Shown piece after piece: positions 14,084-17,623 of a DNA stretch of 48,560 nucleotides. How positions within the stretch are numbered: the stretch's first letter is position 1; every line of letters begins with the position of its first letter. A model generated the notes under the pieces. That model did not search any database, was not told where the DNA came from, and worked only from the letters and a program-made list of their open reading frames with translations. The stretch is from Clostridia bacterium (lineage in GTDB: Bacteria; Bacillota; Clostridia; Christensenellales; Borkfalkiaceae): positions 1 to 48,560 of the forward strand of contig JAQYLE010000056.1 of the NCBI GenBank assembly GCA_028720205.1, in the 5' to 3' direction. The position numbers and the translations under genes were made by a program.

Positions 14084-14260
14084 GGCAAAGCGAAGACGAA
14101 AGGCGCGTAAGCCGCAGAGAATAAAAAAAGCAAAAAATTTTTTAAAAAACGCCAACGCTTTTTTCTCCCCGGTTGTTTATATATGTGAAAGCCGTAAGCG
14201 GAAGCGGGAGTGCGCCGGTTCCGCAAAGGCGGTATAAAAACCGAGAAGGAGAAAAAAATC

Positions 14261-15559
14261 ATGAAAAAATTTATTGCAGGTATGGCGGGCGCGTTGTGCG
14301 CGGTTACGTTGGCGTTTGCGGGGTGCGGCGGCAACAACGACGATGTGAAATTGGTTCCGCCGTCGCCGGATACGGCTTCCGGGGAAGCCTATATGACGGT
14401 GGACATCAATCCGTCGCTGGAATTTCTTTTGGAAGACGATAAAGTCGTGGGCGTAAAAGCGGGCAACGCGGACGGCGCAACGCTGATTTCGGGCGAAACG
14501 TTCGAGGGACTCGGCAGCGAAGAATGCATAAAAAAAGTGGTGGAACTTGCGGAGGATACGGGGTATCTGAACGAGGACAACGCGGACGTGGATATTTCCG
14601 TAGCGGCGGACGACGAAAGCACGCGGCAAAAAATAGAGGAGCATGCCAAAAAAGGCGCGGAGGCGGGTAGCGTTATTGCCAAAGTAAATATCGGCGCCCG
14701 CGCTCAGGACGTGCGCGAAGTGAAAAAATTGCAGGCGGAAAACGACGAGGCGTACAAATCGCTGACTCCCGTGAAATATCGCCTGATTACCGCGGTGATG
14801 CAGTTCGACGAAACGATGACTTATGAAAAAGGCGCGGAAATGACGATTAAAGAACTCAAAGACTTGCTGGAAGAGCACGAAGACGAGTTTGAAGATTACG
14901 CGGGCGAAGAGTTGAAAGAAGCCATGGAAGAAGCGCGCGACGCGGCAAAAGAGAAGATGGAAAAAGATCTTGCGGAACTTTGCGGCGAAGAATACGCGGC
15001 GAAATTTCAGAAATACCTTGCCTATAAAGCCGCGTACGAAGAACTGAAAAAGCAGGCGGAAAACGCCGTGATTTCGGCGGAGGACGAAGCGGCGATCGCG
15101 GAACTTCTGCATATGAAAGATTTATACGTAGTGGGCGAAACGGGAAAAATCGGCGCGGAAACGTTGGAAAAATTTGTGGATAAACTGCGCAATCTTACGG
15201 AGGAAACGCGCGACGCGATTGAAAAAATATTAGAAAAATACGATGAAGACGAAACGGTTATCTCCGGCGAGGATCTGCAGGCGTTTGGCGATCTGATCGG
15301 AGAGATCGACGAAATCACGCTCGACGAACTGGAAGATCTGATCGAAGATTTTAAAGACGAACTGGAAGAAAAATGCGAGGCGTATCTGGAAGAACACCCC
15401 GAATTGAAAGCGCAGATCGAACGCCTGAAAGACGTTTTCCAACATGCGAAAGATACTTTAAAAGACGCGTTTAAAAGCCGCATTGAAGAAAAGAAAGCCG
15501 AGTTTGCAAACGATAAAGAAAGACGTTTGCAGGAATTTAAAAAGGGCAAAGCCGAGTAA
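14261..15559 (+). CDS. RsgI-domain lipoprotein with acidic coiled-coil tail
   Basis: A 432-residue secreted lipoprotein. The signal peptide ends in the lipobox AFAGC, with Cys22 as the lipidated residue. Residues about 42-130 match the extracellular domain of RsgI-type anti-sigma factors, including DINPSLE at 48-54; the Asn-Pro bond in this motif is the reported autoproteolysis site of RsgI. The rest (about 165-432) is strongly acidic, Glu/Lys/Asp-rich and predicted mainly helical. The ATG at 14261 is chosen for aaggag and the signal peptide; a longer frame upstream has no support. It is followed by the ECF sigma and anti-sigma genes, the latter carrying a paralogous domain. It may be a sensor partner, decoy or stress substrate of that switch. 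Confidence 0.78.
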   Translation: MKKFIAGMAGALCAVTLAFAGCGGNNDDVKLVPPSPDTASGEAYMTVDINPSLEFLLEDDKVVGVKAGNADGATLISGETFEGLGSEECIKKVVELAEDTGYLNEDNADVDISVAADDESTRQKIEEHAKKGAEAGSVIAKVNIGARAQDVREVKKLQAENDEAYKSLTPVKYRLITAVMQFDETMTYEKGAEMTIKELKDLLEEHEDEFEDYAGEELKEAMEEARDAAKEKMEKDLAELCGEEYAAKFQKYLAYKAAYEELKKQAENAVISAEDEAAIAELLHMKDLYVVGETGKIGAETLEKFVDKLRNLTEETRDAIEKILEKYDEDETVISGEDLQAFGDLIGEIDEITLDELEDLIEDFKDELEEKCEAYLEEHPELKAQIERLKDVFQHAKDTLKDAFKSRIEEKKAEFANDKERRLQEFKKGKAE

Positions 15560-15608
15560 TACATAATATAATAACATGACGCTAATACACATACATAACA
15601 AGGCGACG

Positions 15609-15646
15609 GTCCGCCCCGCCGTATAACGGGAAACGGCGGAGCGGAC
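15609..15646 (+). promoter_or_regulatory. Hairpin between lipoprotein and sigma factor genes
   Basis: Bases 15609-15622 and 15633-15646 form a 14-bp GC-rich stem with one mismatch and a 10-base loop, ending 22 bases before the sigma start. No U-tract follows, so it may be a processing, stability or partial attenuation element setting the ratio of lipoprotein to sigma factor rather than a full terminator. I see no promoter of usual strength for the sigma gene itself. Confidence 0.5.
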
Positions 15647-15668
15647 GGCGCTGCAAAAAAACAGGCGA

Positions 15669-16229
15669 ATGAAACAAAGAGCGACAAAAAAACAGGGCGG
15701 CGCGGGATTTACGCGCGAAGAAGAGAGGGCTTTCGCGGCGTTTTACGAAAATACGCGGCGTCTGGCTTTCGCCGTCGCTTTTTCCGTTACCTGCAACGCG
15801 CGGGACGCGGAGGAAATCACGCAGGATTCGTATGTGGCGTTATGGGAAAAATATTCCGAAGCGTTGCGTTTTGCGTTTCAATACGGCAGAAAGCACGAAA
15901 AGGAGTTGAAGAATCTGCTGGCGAAAATCGCAAAGAACAAAGCGCTGAATCTGATAAAAAAACGTCGTCGCGAACAATCGGTGGATTTTACTTCGTACGA
16001 GCCGCCCGGACTGGCTTACAGCGTAGACGAACGGGTGGAAGACGGCGCGGCTCTTGCCGCCGCCGCGGCAAGCCTTACTCAAACCGAGCGCGAGATCGTT
16101 CTGATGAAAAACGCGGGAGCAAAGATGAGGGAAATAGCCGGAACGCTGGGTATTCCGCGCGGCACGGCCTCGTGGAAGTATACAAAGGCGTTGGAAAAAC
16201 TCAGGCGCGAATTGGAGGGAACGACATGA
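15669..16229 (+). CDS. ECF-type RNA polymerase sigma factor
   Basis: A 186-residue sigma-70-family factor of ECF architecture. Region 2 spans about 20-65 (AFAAFYENTRRLAFAVAFSV, then ARDAEEITQDSYVALWEKY) and region 4 about 128-180 (LTQTEREIVLMKNAG, then the recognition helix around IPRGTASWKYTKALEKLRR). Region 1.1 and region 3 are absent. It directs RNA polymerase to a small regulon when released from its anti-sigma factor. The next gene starts inside its stop codon (ATGA overlap), the usual sign of translational coupling to a cognate anti-sigma factor. It is not a SigI-family factor even though its partner has an RsgI-like outer domain. The ATG has no strong ribosome binding site, consistent with low expression. 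Confidence 0.88.
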   Translation: MKQRATKKQGGAGFTREEERAFAAFYENTRRLAFAVAFSVTCNARDAEEITQDSYVALWEKYSEALRFAFQYGRKHEKELKNLLAKIAKNKALNLIKKRRREQSVDFTSYEPPGLAYSVDERVEDGAALAAAAASLTQTEREIVLMKNAGAKMREIAGTLGIPRGTASWKYTKALEKLRRELEGTT

Positions 16230-17623
16230 AGAAAAGTCAAGTGGAAAAAAGGATAAAAAGCGAAATAAACCGTTTCGCCCCGTCCGATTTTCTTTCCGTG
16301 CGACAAAAAATAGAAGGGCGGGCTTCTCTGTTCCCCGCGCAGGAAAGCGCGGAGGTTGAAACGCATAGCGGCGGCGCGGCGGCGATCAGGCGTAAAAAAA
16401 CGCTGTTCTCGTTGCTTGCCGCTTTTACGGCGCTTATGTTGCTTTTGCTTGCGTTGCTTCCCGTGTTTTATAAAAACAAAGCGGCGGAAAAACCTTTCAA
16501 CCCCGCGCCTCCGCTTGCAACGGGCGGAAGTTTTTTCATCGACGTGAACCCTTCCATAGAACTGGAATACGACGCGGAGGGCACCGTACTTTCGGCTCGC
16601 GGACTCAACGACGACGGCAAAGTGCTTCTTTCCGGCTGGGACGCTTCGGGAAAAAGCGTGGACGAATGCGTGAACGAGGTGTTCGCCCGATGCGTGGCGC
16701 AGGGGTATTTTACGGCGCTCAGCGAGGATAACGCGGTGCTGGTTACGGCGGAGAGCGCGGAGGGTACGCGCGACGAAACGCGCACGCAGGAAATTAAAGA
16801 TCTGTTTTGTCAGGCCTTCCGTACGAATCAAATACGCGGCGTGGTGATTACGGGCGTTTCCGATCCCGAGGCCGAGGAGGCGGCAAAAGACTACGGAGTG
16901 GACGGTCAGAAATATTCGCTGATAGAATATTATCTTTCTCTCGGCGGCGAGTTGGACGCTTCGCGTTATTCGTCGATTTCCGTAAAAGAACTGTACGCGC
17001 TGATCGAAAAGATAAGCGACGAGGAAAAAGACGCGCTGGAAGATCTTTGCGAAAGCATTCTCGACGGACTTTCGGCAAAACTCAAACTGTTGGAAAAACA
17101 GGTGAAAACGGCGGTGAAAAATCCGTTTCAGAAGAAAGAGGCGGAACGGTTTTTAGAAGAACTTGAAGATTTGTTGGACGAGATGGACGAGATGGACGAG
17201 GGCTTTTCTTTCTTCGGCGCGTTCGGCGATTACGGCGCGGAAACGCCTGCAATGCCGCAATTTCCTGCGGGACCGTTCGGCGGGGAGGATAAAAGCGCTT
17301 CGGGCGGGGACGCGACGGCGCGGTTTTTAAGTAAGGCGCAGGAACTTTCCCTCTGGTTGGAAGAAGCGGGACTGACGGACGAAGCGGAAGCGGCGCGGAC
17401 GCTGAAAGCGGACGCGGAAACCGCGCTCGCGGAATGGGAAGAAGCGCGCGAACGCCTGCAAAATCTGCTTGATTTCGATGCGCGGCGCGAAGAAAAAGAA
17501 GAAGAGATAAAAAACAGCGGCGACAAAGATAAGAAAGAGGACGACGACTTCGACTACGACGATTGGCAGGAGAGGCACGAAGAAGAATTTATGCTGAATT
17601 GGTATAAAAAAGCGCGCGGATAA
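16226..17623 (+). CDS. Transmembrane anti-sigma factor with RsgI-like ectodomain
   Basis: A 465-residue type II membrane protein. Residues 1-58 are cytosolic, basic, and presumably bind the sigma factor; they match neither the zinc anti-sigma motif nor the short RsgI N-domain. A transmembrane helix spans about 59-82. The outside part starts with an RsgI-like domain (about 100-215) containing FIDVNPSIELEY with D106-x-N108-P109-S110, the bond cleaved autoproteolytically in characterised RsgI proteins. A long acidic helical region follows (about 250-440), with DEMDEMDEG and Glu/Asp/Lys-rich tails. The start overlaps the sigma stop by 4 bases. The ectodomain is paralogous to the lipoprotein two genes upstream. 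Signal release probably follows cleavage and intramembrane proteolysis, by analogy. Confidence 0.82.
   Translation: MKKSQVEKRIKSEINRFAPSDFLSVRQKIEGRASLFPAQESAEVETHSGGAAAIRRKKTLFSLLAAFTALMLLLLALLPVFYKNKAAEKPFNPAPPLATGGSFFIDVNPSIELEYDAEGTVLSARGLNDDGKVLLSGWDASGKSVDECVNEVFARCVAQGYFTALSEDNAVLVTAESAEGTRDETRTQEIKDLFCQAFRTNQIRGVVITGVSDPEAEEAAKDYGVDGQKYSLIEYYLSLGGELDASRYSSISVKELYALIEKISDEEKDALEDLCESILDGLSAKLKLLEKQVKTAVKNPFQKKEAERFLEELEDLLDEMDEMDEGFSFFGAFGDYGAETPAMPQFPAGPFGGEDKSASGGDATARFLSKAQELSLWLEEAGLTDEAEAARTLKADAETALAEWEEARERLQNLLDFDARREEKEEEIKNSGDKDKKEDDDFDYDDWQERHEEEFMLNWYKKARG

Follow-up and report, generated by a model that had tools for sequence, protein, structure and literature searches.

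Why should a membrane sensor and a surface lipoprotein encoded beside it carry the same outer domain? This question is raised by a stretch of DNA from a Clostridia bacterium (GenBank assembly GCA_028720205.1, contig JAQYLE010000056.1), which in its full length of 48,560 nucleotides is referred to as the window. The host is a gut bacterium with a genome of 1.94 Mb (96% complete); its closest named relatives are uncultured Clostridia, for the most part from deer and sheep gut. Positions 14261-17623 carry on the plus strand, in this order, genes for a lipoprotein, for a sigma factor of the extracytoplasmic function (ECF) type and for a membrane-bound anti-sigma factor, which confirms the observation of an earlier sequence-only reading. 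We consider it rather probable that the trio constitutes an ECF sigma circuit whose surface domain is breakable and whose dedicated output is the lipoprotein.

The three genes of the unit

The features of the unit are as follows.

14152..14182, plus strand: promoter CCAAC-N17-TGTTTATAT, 78 nt upstream of the lipoprotein start codon (ATG), predicted to be sigma-dependent (autoregulated)
14261..15559, plus strand: RsgI_M lipoprotein gene, 432 aa, predicted main output of the sigma factor
14387..14719, plus strand: RsgI_M (SEA-like) domain of the lipoprotein, residues 43-153 (Pfam)
14408..14413, plus strand: Asn50-Pro51 codons of the lipoprotein, predicted self-cleavage site between strands 42-48 and 52-58
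15603..15650, plus strand: hairpin between the lipoprotein and sigma genes, without a T-run (folding energy)
15669..16229, plus strand: ECF sigma factor gene, 186 aa, regions 2 and 4
16226..17623, plus strand: anti-sigma gene, 465 aa, with inner domain 1-58, transmembrane helix at about 59-82, RsgI_M 105-234 and an acidic helical tail
16538..16927, plus strand: RsgI_M (SEA-like) domain of the anti-sigma factor
16547..16552, plus strand: Asn108-Pro109 codons of the anti-sigma factor, predicted self-cleavage site between strands 101-106 and 110-115

The lipobox of the lipoprotein reads AFAG-Cys22, and Cys22 is invariant (23 of 23). The ECF type claimed for the sigma factor is well founded. Sigma70_r2 (PF04542) and Sigma70_r4 (PF04545) are matched above cut-off, TIGR02937 (sigma70-ECF) is matched with 58.3 bits (cut-off 42.9), and of the ECF and SigI profiles built for this analysis those of the ECF type claim the protein. 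No region 3 was found in its 186 residues. The region 2 match contains an insertion of about 10 residues (residues about 65-78) which is absent from seven aligned relatives.

The start of the anti-sigma gene overlaps the end of the sigma gene by 4 bases. In the anti-sigma protein a single transmembrane helix (hydropathy peak, predicted helix 59-86) separates the inner from the outer domain. The inner, cytosolic domain had been described as different from RsgI_N; indeed, a search of the anti-sigma factor for RsgI_N gave no match up to an E value of 1. Of the 22 members of alignment A4 three match RsgI_N; three SigI-partnered proteins are included there.

A third RsgI_M gene of the window's genome codes for a solo lipoprotein on contig C50 (L033:4292-5506; G000:C50:7732-8109). 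It lies near nuoE/nuoF-like and ABC-transporter genes (neighbour names assigned by eye).

The outer domains and their Asn-Pro site

The hidden Markov model check proposed for both ectodomains gives a clear result. Pfam RsgI_M (PF23750, curated cut-off 25.3 bits) matches residues 43-153 of the lipoprotein (67.2 bits, E 2.9e-18) and residues 105-234 of the anti-sigma factor (87.7 bits, E 1.3e-24). The D-x-N-P-S-x-E motif likewise is present in both, as D48-I-N-P-S-L-E54 in the lipoprotein and as D106-V-N-P-S110-I-E in the anti-sigma factor. Conservation of the Asn-Pro pair was counted in an alignment of 227 RsgI_M proteins from a profile search, deduplicated, with 5 proteins of unclear type counted apart. 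The pair is kept in 87 of 87 lipoproteins, solo ones included, in 75 of 77 ECF anti-sigma factors and in 58 of 58 SigI anti-sigma factors, and in 0 of the 5 unclear ones.

AlphaFold2 models of the two RsgI_M domains have an identical order of strands and helices with Asn-Pro between strands 1 and 2. In the anti-sigma model strands 101-106 and 110-115 flank Asn108-Pro109, and the predicted local distance difference test (pLDDT) is about 90 for the domain and 71 for the whole model. In the lipoprotein model (mean pLDDT 84) strands 42-48 and 52-58 flank Asn50-Pro51. Its ten top fold matches in the PDB are all RsgI periplasmic domains (probability 0.99-1.00, template-modelling score by target up to 0.79); the best E value is 2.3e-3, none being 0.001 or better. 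A sequence search of the PDB found six chains matching the RsgI_M domains. Five of these six solved relatives (8hep, 8her, 8u9o, 8heq, 8hdj) are deposited as chains whose first residue corresponds in the alignment to Pro109 or Pro51, in line with a broken bond; first letters were checked for two of the five and are Pro in both. The remaining chain, 8t9n, bears the title RsgI GGG mutant.

The Asn-Pro pair might be conserved for folding alone, as a tight turn, with neither protein being cut. The residues flanking it are in keeping with such a notion: Asp and Ser are variable, most so in lipoproteins, and NPE, NPQ and NPA are seen. The chain starts of five of six solved relatives speak against it, and we regard a mere folding turn as very improbable. 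Self-cleavage of RsgI domains is described in passages of PMC12203970 and PMC10575876. Fold, motif and solved relatives point to cleavage at Asn-Pro, and both proteins are likely to cleave themselves. The outer domain probably works like that of RsgI.

Conservation of the trio

The genome set consisted of 151 genomes, the window's own and 150 relatives, of which 82 have RsgI_M. In all, 100 stretches were examined, with four matched contigs left out (G083:C91, G085:C2, G100:C4, G150:C115). Counts are deduplicated: 14 duplicate proteins and edge loci were set apart, and two loci (L204, L216) were retyped by hand. Within the family 42 units of an ECF sigma factor and an RsgI_M protein were found. 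The lipoprotein gene lies after the pair in 22 and before it in 12; 6 have none and 2 lie at contig edges. A same-strand RsgI_M lipoprotein gene thus adjoins 34 of 40 non-edge units. Gaps to the adjacent lipoprotein gene measure 4-369 bases over all sets.

Beyond the family the picture is more varied. The order set contained 23 ECF and 8 SigI units. A same-strand lipoprotein adjoins 3 of 18 non-edge ECF units, one more has it on the opposite strand, and it is present at 2 of 6 non-edge SigI units. The named set comprised the best 80 of 128 relatives in a search with lipoprotein alignment A2, and is biased towards lipoproteins because the query was itself a lipoprotein alignment; a first scan of its contigs with the anti-sigma sequence alone found nothing. 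Here a lipoprotein is present at 9 of 12 ECF units, or at 10 when L116 is corrected by eye, where the script scored 'none' but the coordinates show the lipoprotein to be adjacent, and at 0 of 44 non-edge SigI units. No cultured relative with the trio was recognised among the named loci; Sporobacter termitidis DSM 10068 (L129) has the ECF pair, and no lipoprotein gene adjoins it within the 7 kb covered. The class survey identified RsgI_M in 58 of 146 other genomes; only four of these have two same-strand matches at most 2.5 kb apart in different open frames (coordinates read by eye).

Two SigI-RsgI pairs are followed by an RsgI_M lipoprotein (L200:3491-6264, L203:1-2978), i.e., the partner is not confined to ECF sigma factors. 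At a third locus (L223) the arrangement is similar, but the protein is a secreted one in which Lys-Pro replaces Asn-Pro.

Over 46 units the distances of sigma factor, anti-sigma factor and lipoprotein are correlated (Mantel r 0.82, 0.64 and 0.68; 0 of 2000 permutations). Together with the recurrence in 34 of 40 family units this demonstrates that the trio is more than chance, and the postulated co-occurrence of the three genes, including the paralogous lipoprotein in the same unit, is borne out. The ECF sigma factor had further been viewed as a departure from the usual SigI pairing. It is an ECF factor, yet this is not unusual, given 23 ECF against 8 SigI units in the order set.

The notion of a second copy of the outer domain also needs qualification. 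The domains are paralogous, but old: those of the window's lipoprotein and anti-sigma factor are 22% identical. A recent duplication of the anti-sigma ectodomain was rejected on account of this value and of mostly separate tree branches. In the RsgI_M tree the lipoprotein label needs 8 changes compared with 60.7 when shuffled. As this tree is short, with 137 columns, and leaves 74 of its 179 inner branches open, single placements were not used.

Promoter motifs and the probable output of the sigma factor

Lipoprotein-first operons have an upstream motif CCAAC-N17-TGTCTATAT, located 38-86 nt from the start codon, with the 17-nt spacing common to most. It scores at least 12 of 14 in 17 of 19 upstream regions (shuffles 0.5%). 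Sigma-first operons have the motif [CG]CAA[CT]AAA-N14/15-GTTTAAT. At a score of at least 14 of 15 it is located before 29 of 60 sigma genes and recurs in the short gap before the adjacent lipoprotein gene in 21 of 31 cases and before 14 of 37 solo-classed lipoproteins (shuffles 0.5-0.65%). In the 17 of 29 units in which both sites are strong, the sigma and lipoprotein promoters agree at 16.06 of 17 positions, compared with 14.52 when partners are shuffled (0 of 5000), in a test that ignores the relatedness of the genomes.

Genome scans, in which sites were assigned to genes by eye from coordinates, place the motifs mostly at the unit itself. With at most one mismatch the lipoprotein-first motif has 14 sites in 8 genomes, 8 of them at the unit, one per genome, and 6 elsewhere. 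In the window's genome the sole such site is the unit's own at 14152-14182. The sigma-first motif was sought in 20 genomes: of its 25 exact sites 24 precede a sigma or RsgI_M lipoprotein gene, and the reversed-pattern control has none. With at most one mismatch 31 of 40 sites are at such genes.

Several points reduce the weight of these figures. The 6 lipoprotein-first sites away from the unit equal the number in the reversed-pattern control, which also yields 1 site in the window's genome. Three of the 20 genomes have no exact sigma-first site, and 9 of the 40 one-mismatch sites lie elsewhere (control 15). The motif consensus was derived from the same upstream regions that were scored, the shuffles were mononucleotide, and the genomes scanned had been selected for carrying the unit. 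Strict patterns may miss degenerate targets. Before the solo lipoprotein of the window's genome the lipoprotein-first motif scores 11 of 14, its -35 half being poor, and the strict scan of that genome does not hit this site.

Even so, the same ECF-type promoter motif is present at sigma and lipoprotein genes, and the scans put its copies there. The lipoprotein consequently is probably the main output of the sigma factor, as far as promoters can tell. That it is a target at all we hold to be highly likely. From the conserved -35/-10 motif before the unit the sigma factor is predicted to autoregulate its unit. The sequence-only reading, in which the lipoprotein was a bystander or competitor, was incomplete on this point: the promoters make it the probable regulated product.

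A broad stress regulon was considered but found no support; away from these genes one-mismatch sites are no more numerous than in the reversed-pattern control. The single exact sigma-first site outside the unit (L258, G046:C92:30746-30776) precedes a hisIE-like gene (by eye). A one-mismatch lipoprotein-first motif lies before a lipoprotein that by eye resembles a trypsin-like protease (L234, G031:C12:63865-63895); such outliers are as numerous as in the control. At L142:4471-6917 an RsgI_M lipoprotein gene is divergent from one for a subtilisin-like protease (by eye), and a sigma-type motif precedes each. A GTGnAAGG-like stretch located 3' of the -10 element (14183-14193 in the window) accompanies many lipoprotein-first promoters and also occurs before the sigma genes of L130 and L134 (by eye).

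The gap between lipoprotein and sigma genes in the window folds into the hairpin at 15603-15650; the stretch has a minimum free energy of -39.5 with z -3.8 against mononucleotide shuffles. By the same measure 13 of 19 lipoprotein-first loci, the window included, reach a z of -2.5 or lower, the gap of L114 having run into the sigma gene. The hairpin is a possible element of mRNA processing or stability. A housekeeping-like promoter before the sigma gene (at least 9 of 12; shuffles 11.5%) is present in 13 of 19 lipoprotein-first loci; in the window none was found between lipoprotein and sigma genes. A generic scan for sigma-70 promoters and terminators yielded nothing above chance. A housekeeping-like promoter and a stable gap fold would agree with low, constant amounts of sigma factor and with regulated, higher production of the lipoprotein.

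Exchange of sensor and probable product

Three genomes contain natural fusions (L064, L072, L073) in which the inner half of an anti-sigma factor is joined to an outer half of the lipoprotein type. Their inner and transmembrane part matches anti-sigma factors alone (9 of 9 each). For the outer domain (best match 53-58% identity) and the tail (41-43%) all ten top matches are lipoproteins. At L064 and L072 no adjacent lipoprotein was found by script; L073 is a 4.5-kb contig. Genomes G038 and G052 have no further RsgI_M match, and G050 has a further pair on another contig. A deletion within an array of sigma factor, anti-sigma factor and lipoprotein would give such fusions.

Other loci, and some of the counts, speak against the proposed circuit. 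At L130 and L134 an ECF sigma factor and a lipoprotein are retained together with a membrane protein at the place of the anti-sigma factor in which no RsgI_M is detected by profile. The promoter motif is present before the lipoprotein gene in both, and before the sigma gene in L134, with a weaker copy in L130. At L078 the anti-sigma factor has lost Asn-Pro and the adjacent lipoprotein keeps it. Because of these three loci anti-sigma factor and lipoprotein need not share a trigger; sigma factor and lipoprotein look constant and the sensor variable. Further, 6 of the 40 family units have no adjacent lipoprotein, and 10 family lipoproteins, one in the window's own genome, have no sigma factor within 4 kb.

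How might the lipoprotein act on the sensor, if at all? It could be a co-inhibitor which binds and stabilises the anti-sigma outer domain until a ligand pulls it away. RseB acting on RseA is a precedent. Here, too, the gene of an accessory surface protein adjoins those of sigma and anti-sigma factor, both outer domains have the same fold, and sigma-dependent production of the lipoprotein would give negative feedback. However, the outer domains show no sign of co-evolution in sequence, identity being 24.2% within and 23.7% between units, and the lipoprotein persists beside the proteins of L130 and L134 without detectable RsgI_M. We hold a co-inhibitor to be unlikely.

A plain effector has a slightly better standing, although it is still doubtful. 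The lipoprotein would then be a self-cleaving, sheddable target of the sigma factor with a job of its own, e.g., as coat, adhesin or decoy, and never touch the sensor. The universal Asn-Pro of the lipoproteins, solo ones included, is compatible with this, as are its retention where the sensor domain has changed and a tail that is more conserved than that of the anti-sigma factor (mean pairwise identity 0.41 and 0.30 in two sets of 8). Left unexplained are the domain common to sensor and output, and the three fusions, two of them without an adjacent lipoprotein gene and the third on a short contig.

Helical tails and the cell wall

RsgI of Bacillus subtilis has been proposed to be a sensor of cell-wall integrity, and the trio may be suspected to serve the same purpose, with tails that probe gaps in the peptidoglycan. 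The outer domain is the same as in RsgI, the tails are long and acidic, and the window's genome has transpeptidases and murG. The composition of the tails argues otherwise. The fraction of hydrophobic residues is 0.39 in ECF-type anti-sigma factors and 0.43 in lipoproteins compared with 0.18 in the SigI type. For the lipoprotein tail folded helices are predicted, with pLDDT in 10-residue blocks mostly 80-95 and lowest at 63-78.

Nor does the trio appear to be restricted to organisms with peptidoglycan. RsgI_M lipoproteins were found in five genomes (Acholeplasma, Acholeplasmataceae, Tenericutes, Izemoplasmatales), and the transpeptidase PF00905 in 0 of these 5. For murG three of them have no match and two a weak one (18.7 and 18.9 bits), compared with 253 bits in the window's genome and 220 bits in the transpeptidase-bearing G156, the latter itself below the cut-off of 250. 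The M50 site-2 protease is strong in all five (190-213 bits). All five are metagenome-assembled genomes (MAGs) of unstated completeness, in which gene absence is weaker evidence than in closed genomes. Two Acholeplasma-type MAGs possess the full trio (L123, L169), a third has sigma factor and lipoprotein (L130). The promoter motif was not found at the units of L123 and L169.

Since the complete trio occurs in two such genomes in which no transpeptidase was found, wall sensing is probably not its general purpose. As an explanation for the trio at large we rate a cell-wall integrity sensor as quite unlikely. The suggestion that the acidic tails sense the state of the wall is thus not upheld, the more so as the lipoprotein tail is predicted to consist of folded helices rather than to be a disordered wall probe. 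Sensing of cations, the other suggestion, is weak: EF-hand-like loops are visible by eye in some relatives and degenerate in the window. The helix-loop-helix segments concerned correspond to residues 262-362 of the lipoprotein, and the loops were seen by eye in L110, L119, L120, L125 and L126. The Pfam EF-hand match in the tail reached only E 0.086, and an EF-hand sensor was rejected.

A possible mechanism

An ECF circuit with a breakable surface domain would operate as follows. Gene order and overlap suggest that the inner domain of the anti-sigma factor holds the sigma factor at the membrane. Its outer RsgI_M/SEA-like domain would cut itself at Asn108-Pro109 during folding, the halves remaining joined by a shared beta-sheet. 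Pull or binding at the tail may then strip off the outer half. By analogy with RsgI an RseP-type site-2 protease would cut the stub in the membrane and free the sigma factor; a candidate M50 peptidase is present in the window's genome (G000:C65, 201.7 bits). According to the promoter evidence the freed sigma factor would transcribe its own unit from 14152-14182, with the lipoprotein gene first. The lipoprotein, with its helical tail, would display a related breakable domain in far greater numbers on the outside of the membrane. There it may absorb whatever insult or load had broken the sensor, and reset the circuit, i.e., provide negative feedback.

The action of the lipoprotein outside the cell, absorbing the insult or having a role of its own, is the weakest step of this mechanism. 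Whether it feeds back on the signal or acts elsewhere is evenly balanced in our view. A more far-reaching version is tentative, and we would rather bet against it: a closed, self-referential loop in which the sigma factor almost solely makes its own lipoprotein, sensor and product having one self-cleaving domain in common, and in which loss of the sensor's outer half would lead to a flood of breakable surface copies that absorb the insult or re-cap the stub by strand exchange. Such a loop would be transferable between sensors, fusible into one protein and operable without a wall.

Relation to known systems

The closest known system is SigI/RsgI of Bacillus and Clostridium thermocellum. Common features are a single-pass anti-sigma factor with an RsgI_M outer domain (SEA-like, Asn-Pro) and a long tail, an anti-sigma gene directly downstream of the sigma gene, and an available site-2 protease. 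The differences are equally evident. The sigma factor of the trio is an ECF factor with region 4 and not SigI, no RsgI_N was found in its anti-sigma factor, and the tail is predicted to be helical, unlike the disordered or carbohydrate-binding ones of RsgI. An adjacent RsgI_M lipoprotein with a sigma-type promoter belongs to the trio; SigI units have such a neighbour in none of 44 cases in the named set, but in 2 of 6 in the order set.

In E. coli the RpoE-RseA-RseB system has sigma factor, anti-sigma factor and accessory envelope protein in one operon and a site-2 protease pathway, as here. The fold of RseB and the DegS step differ, and in the trio the accessory protein is paralogous to the sensor domain. 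SEA domains of the MUC1 type likewise are self-cleaving surface domains, held together non-covalently and shed under force; they are eukaryotic and have another scissile bond. The sigma factor of the sigma24C-Rsi24C pair of C. thermocellum is an ECF factor. This pair is listed among RsgI-like pairs in a passage of PMC3990059, so that an ECF sigma factor with an RsgI-like anti-sigma factor has at least one reported precedent. Compared by description only, it carries a GH5-like module, and no lipoprotein partner is mentioned in that passage (PMC3990059). Searches of open-licence PMC papers yielded no description of a sigma-controlled RsgI_M lipoprotein partner. The sensor domain is known from RsgI; a circuit whose product shares the breakable domain of its sensor appears to be a new variant.

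What does this mean for the biology of these bacteria? Few bacterial systems are believed to convert physical pulling into transcription, and RsgI-type domains belong to them. In the circuit described here the likely output is a surface protein that shares the breakable domain. This suggests that bacteria have sheddable surface proteins under mechanical or binding control, as in the SEA domains of mucins. The natural fusions show which parts are exchangeable. The trio also occurs in lineages that apparently lack a wall, which speaks against a universal role of peptidoglycan as the ligand; this question is directly testable. The trio may represent a self-contained alarm-and-repair loop.

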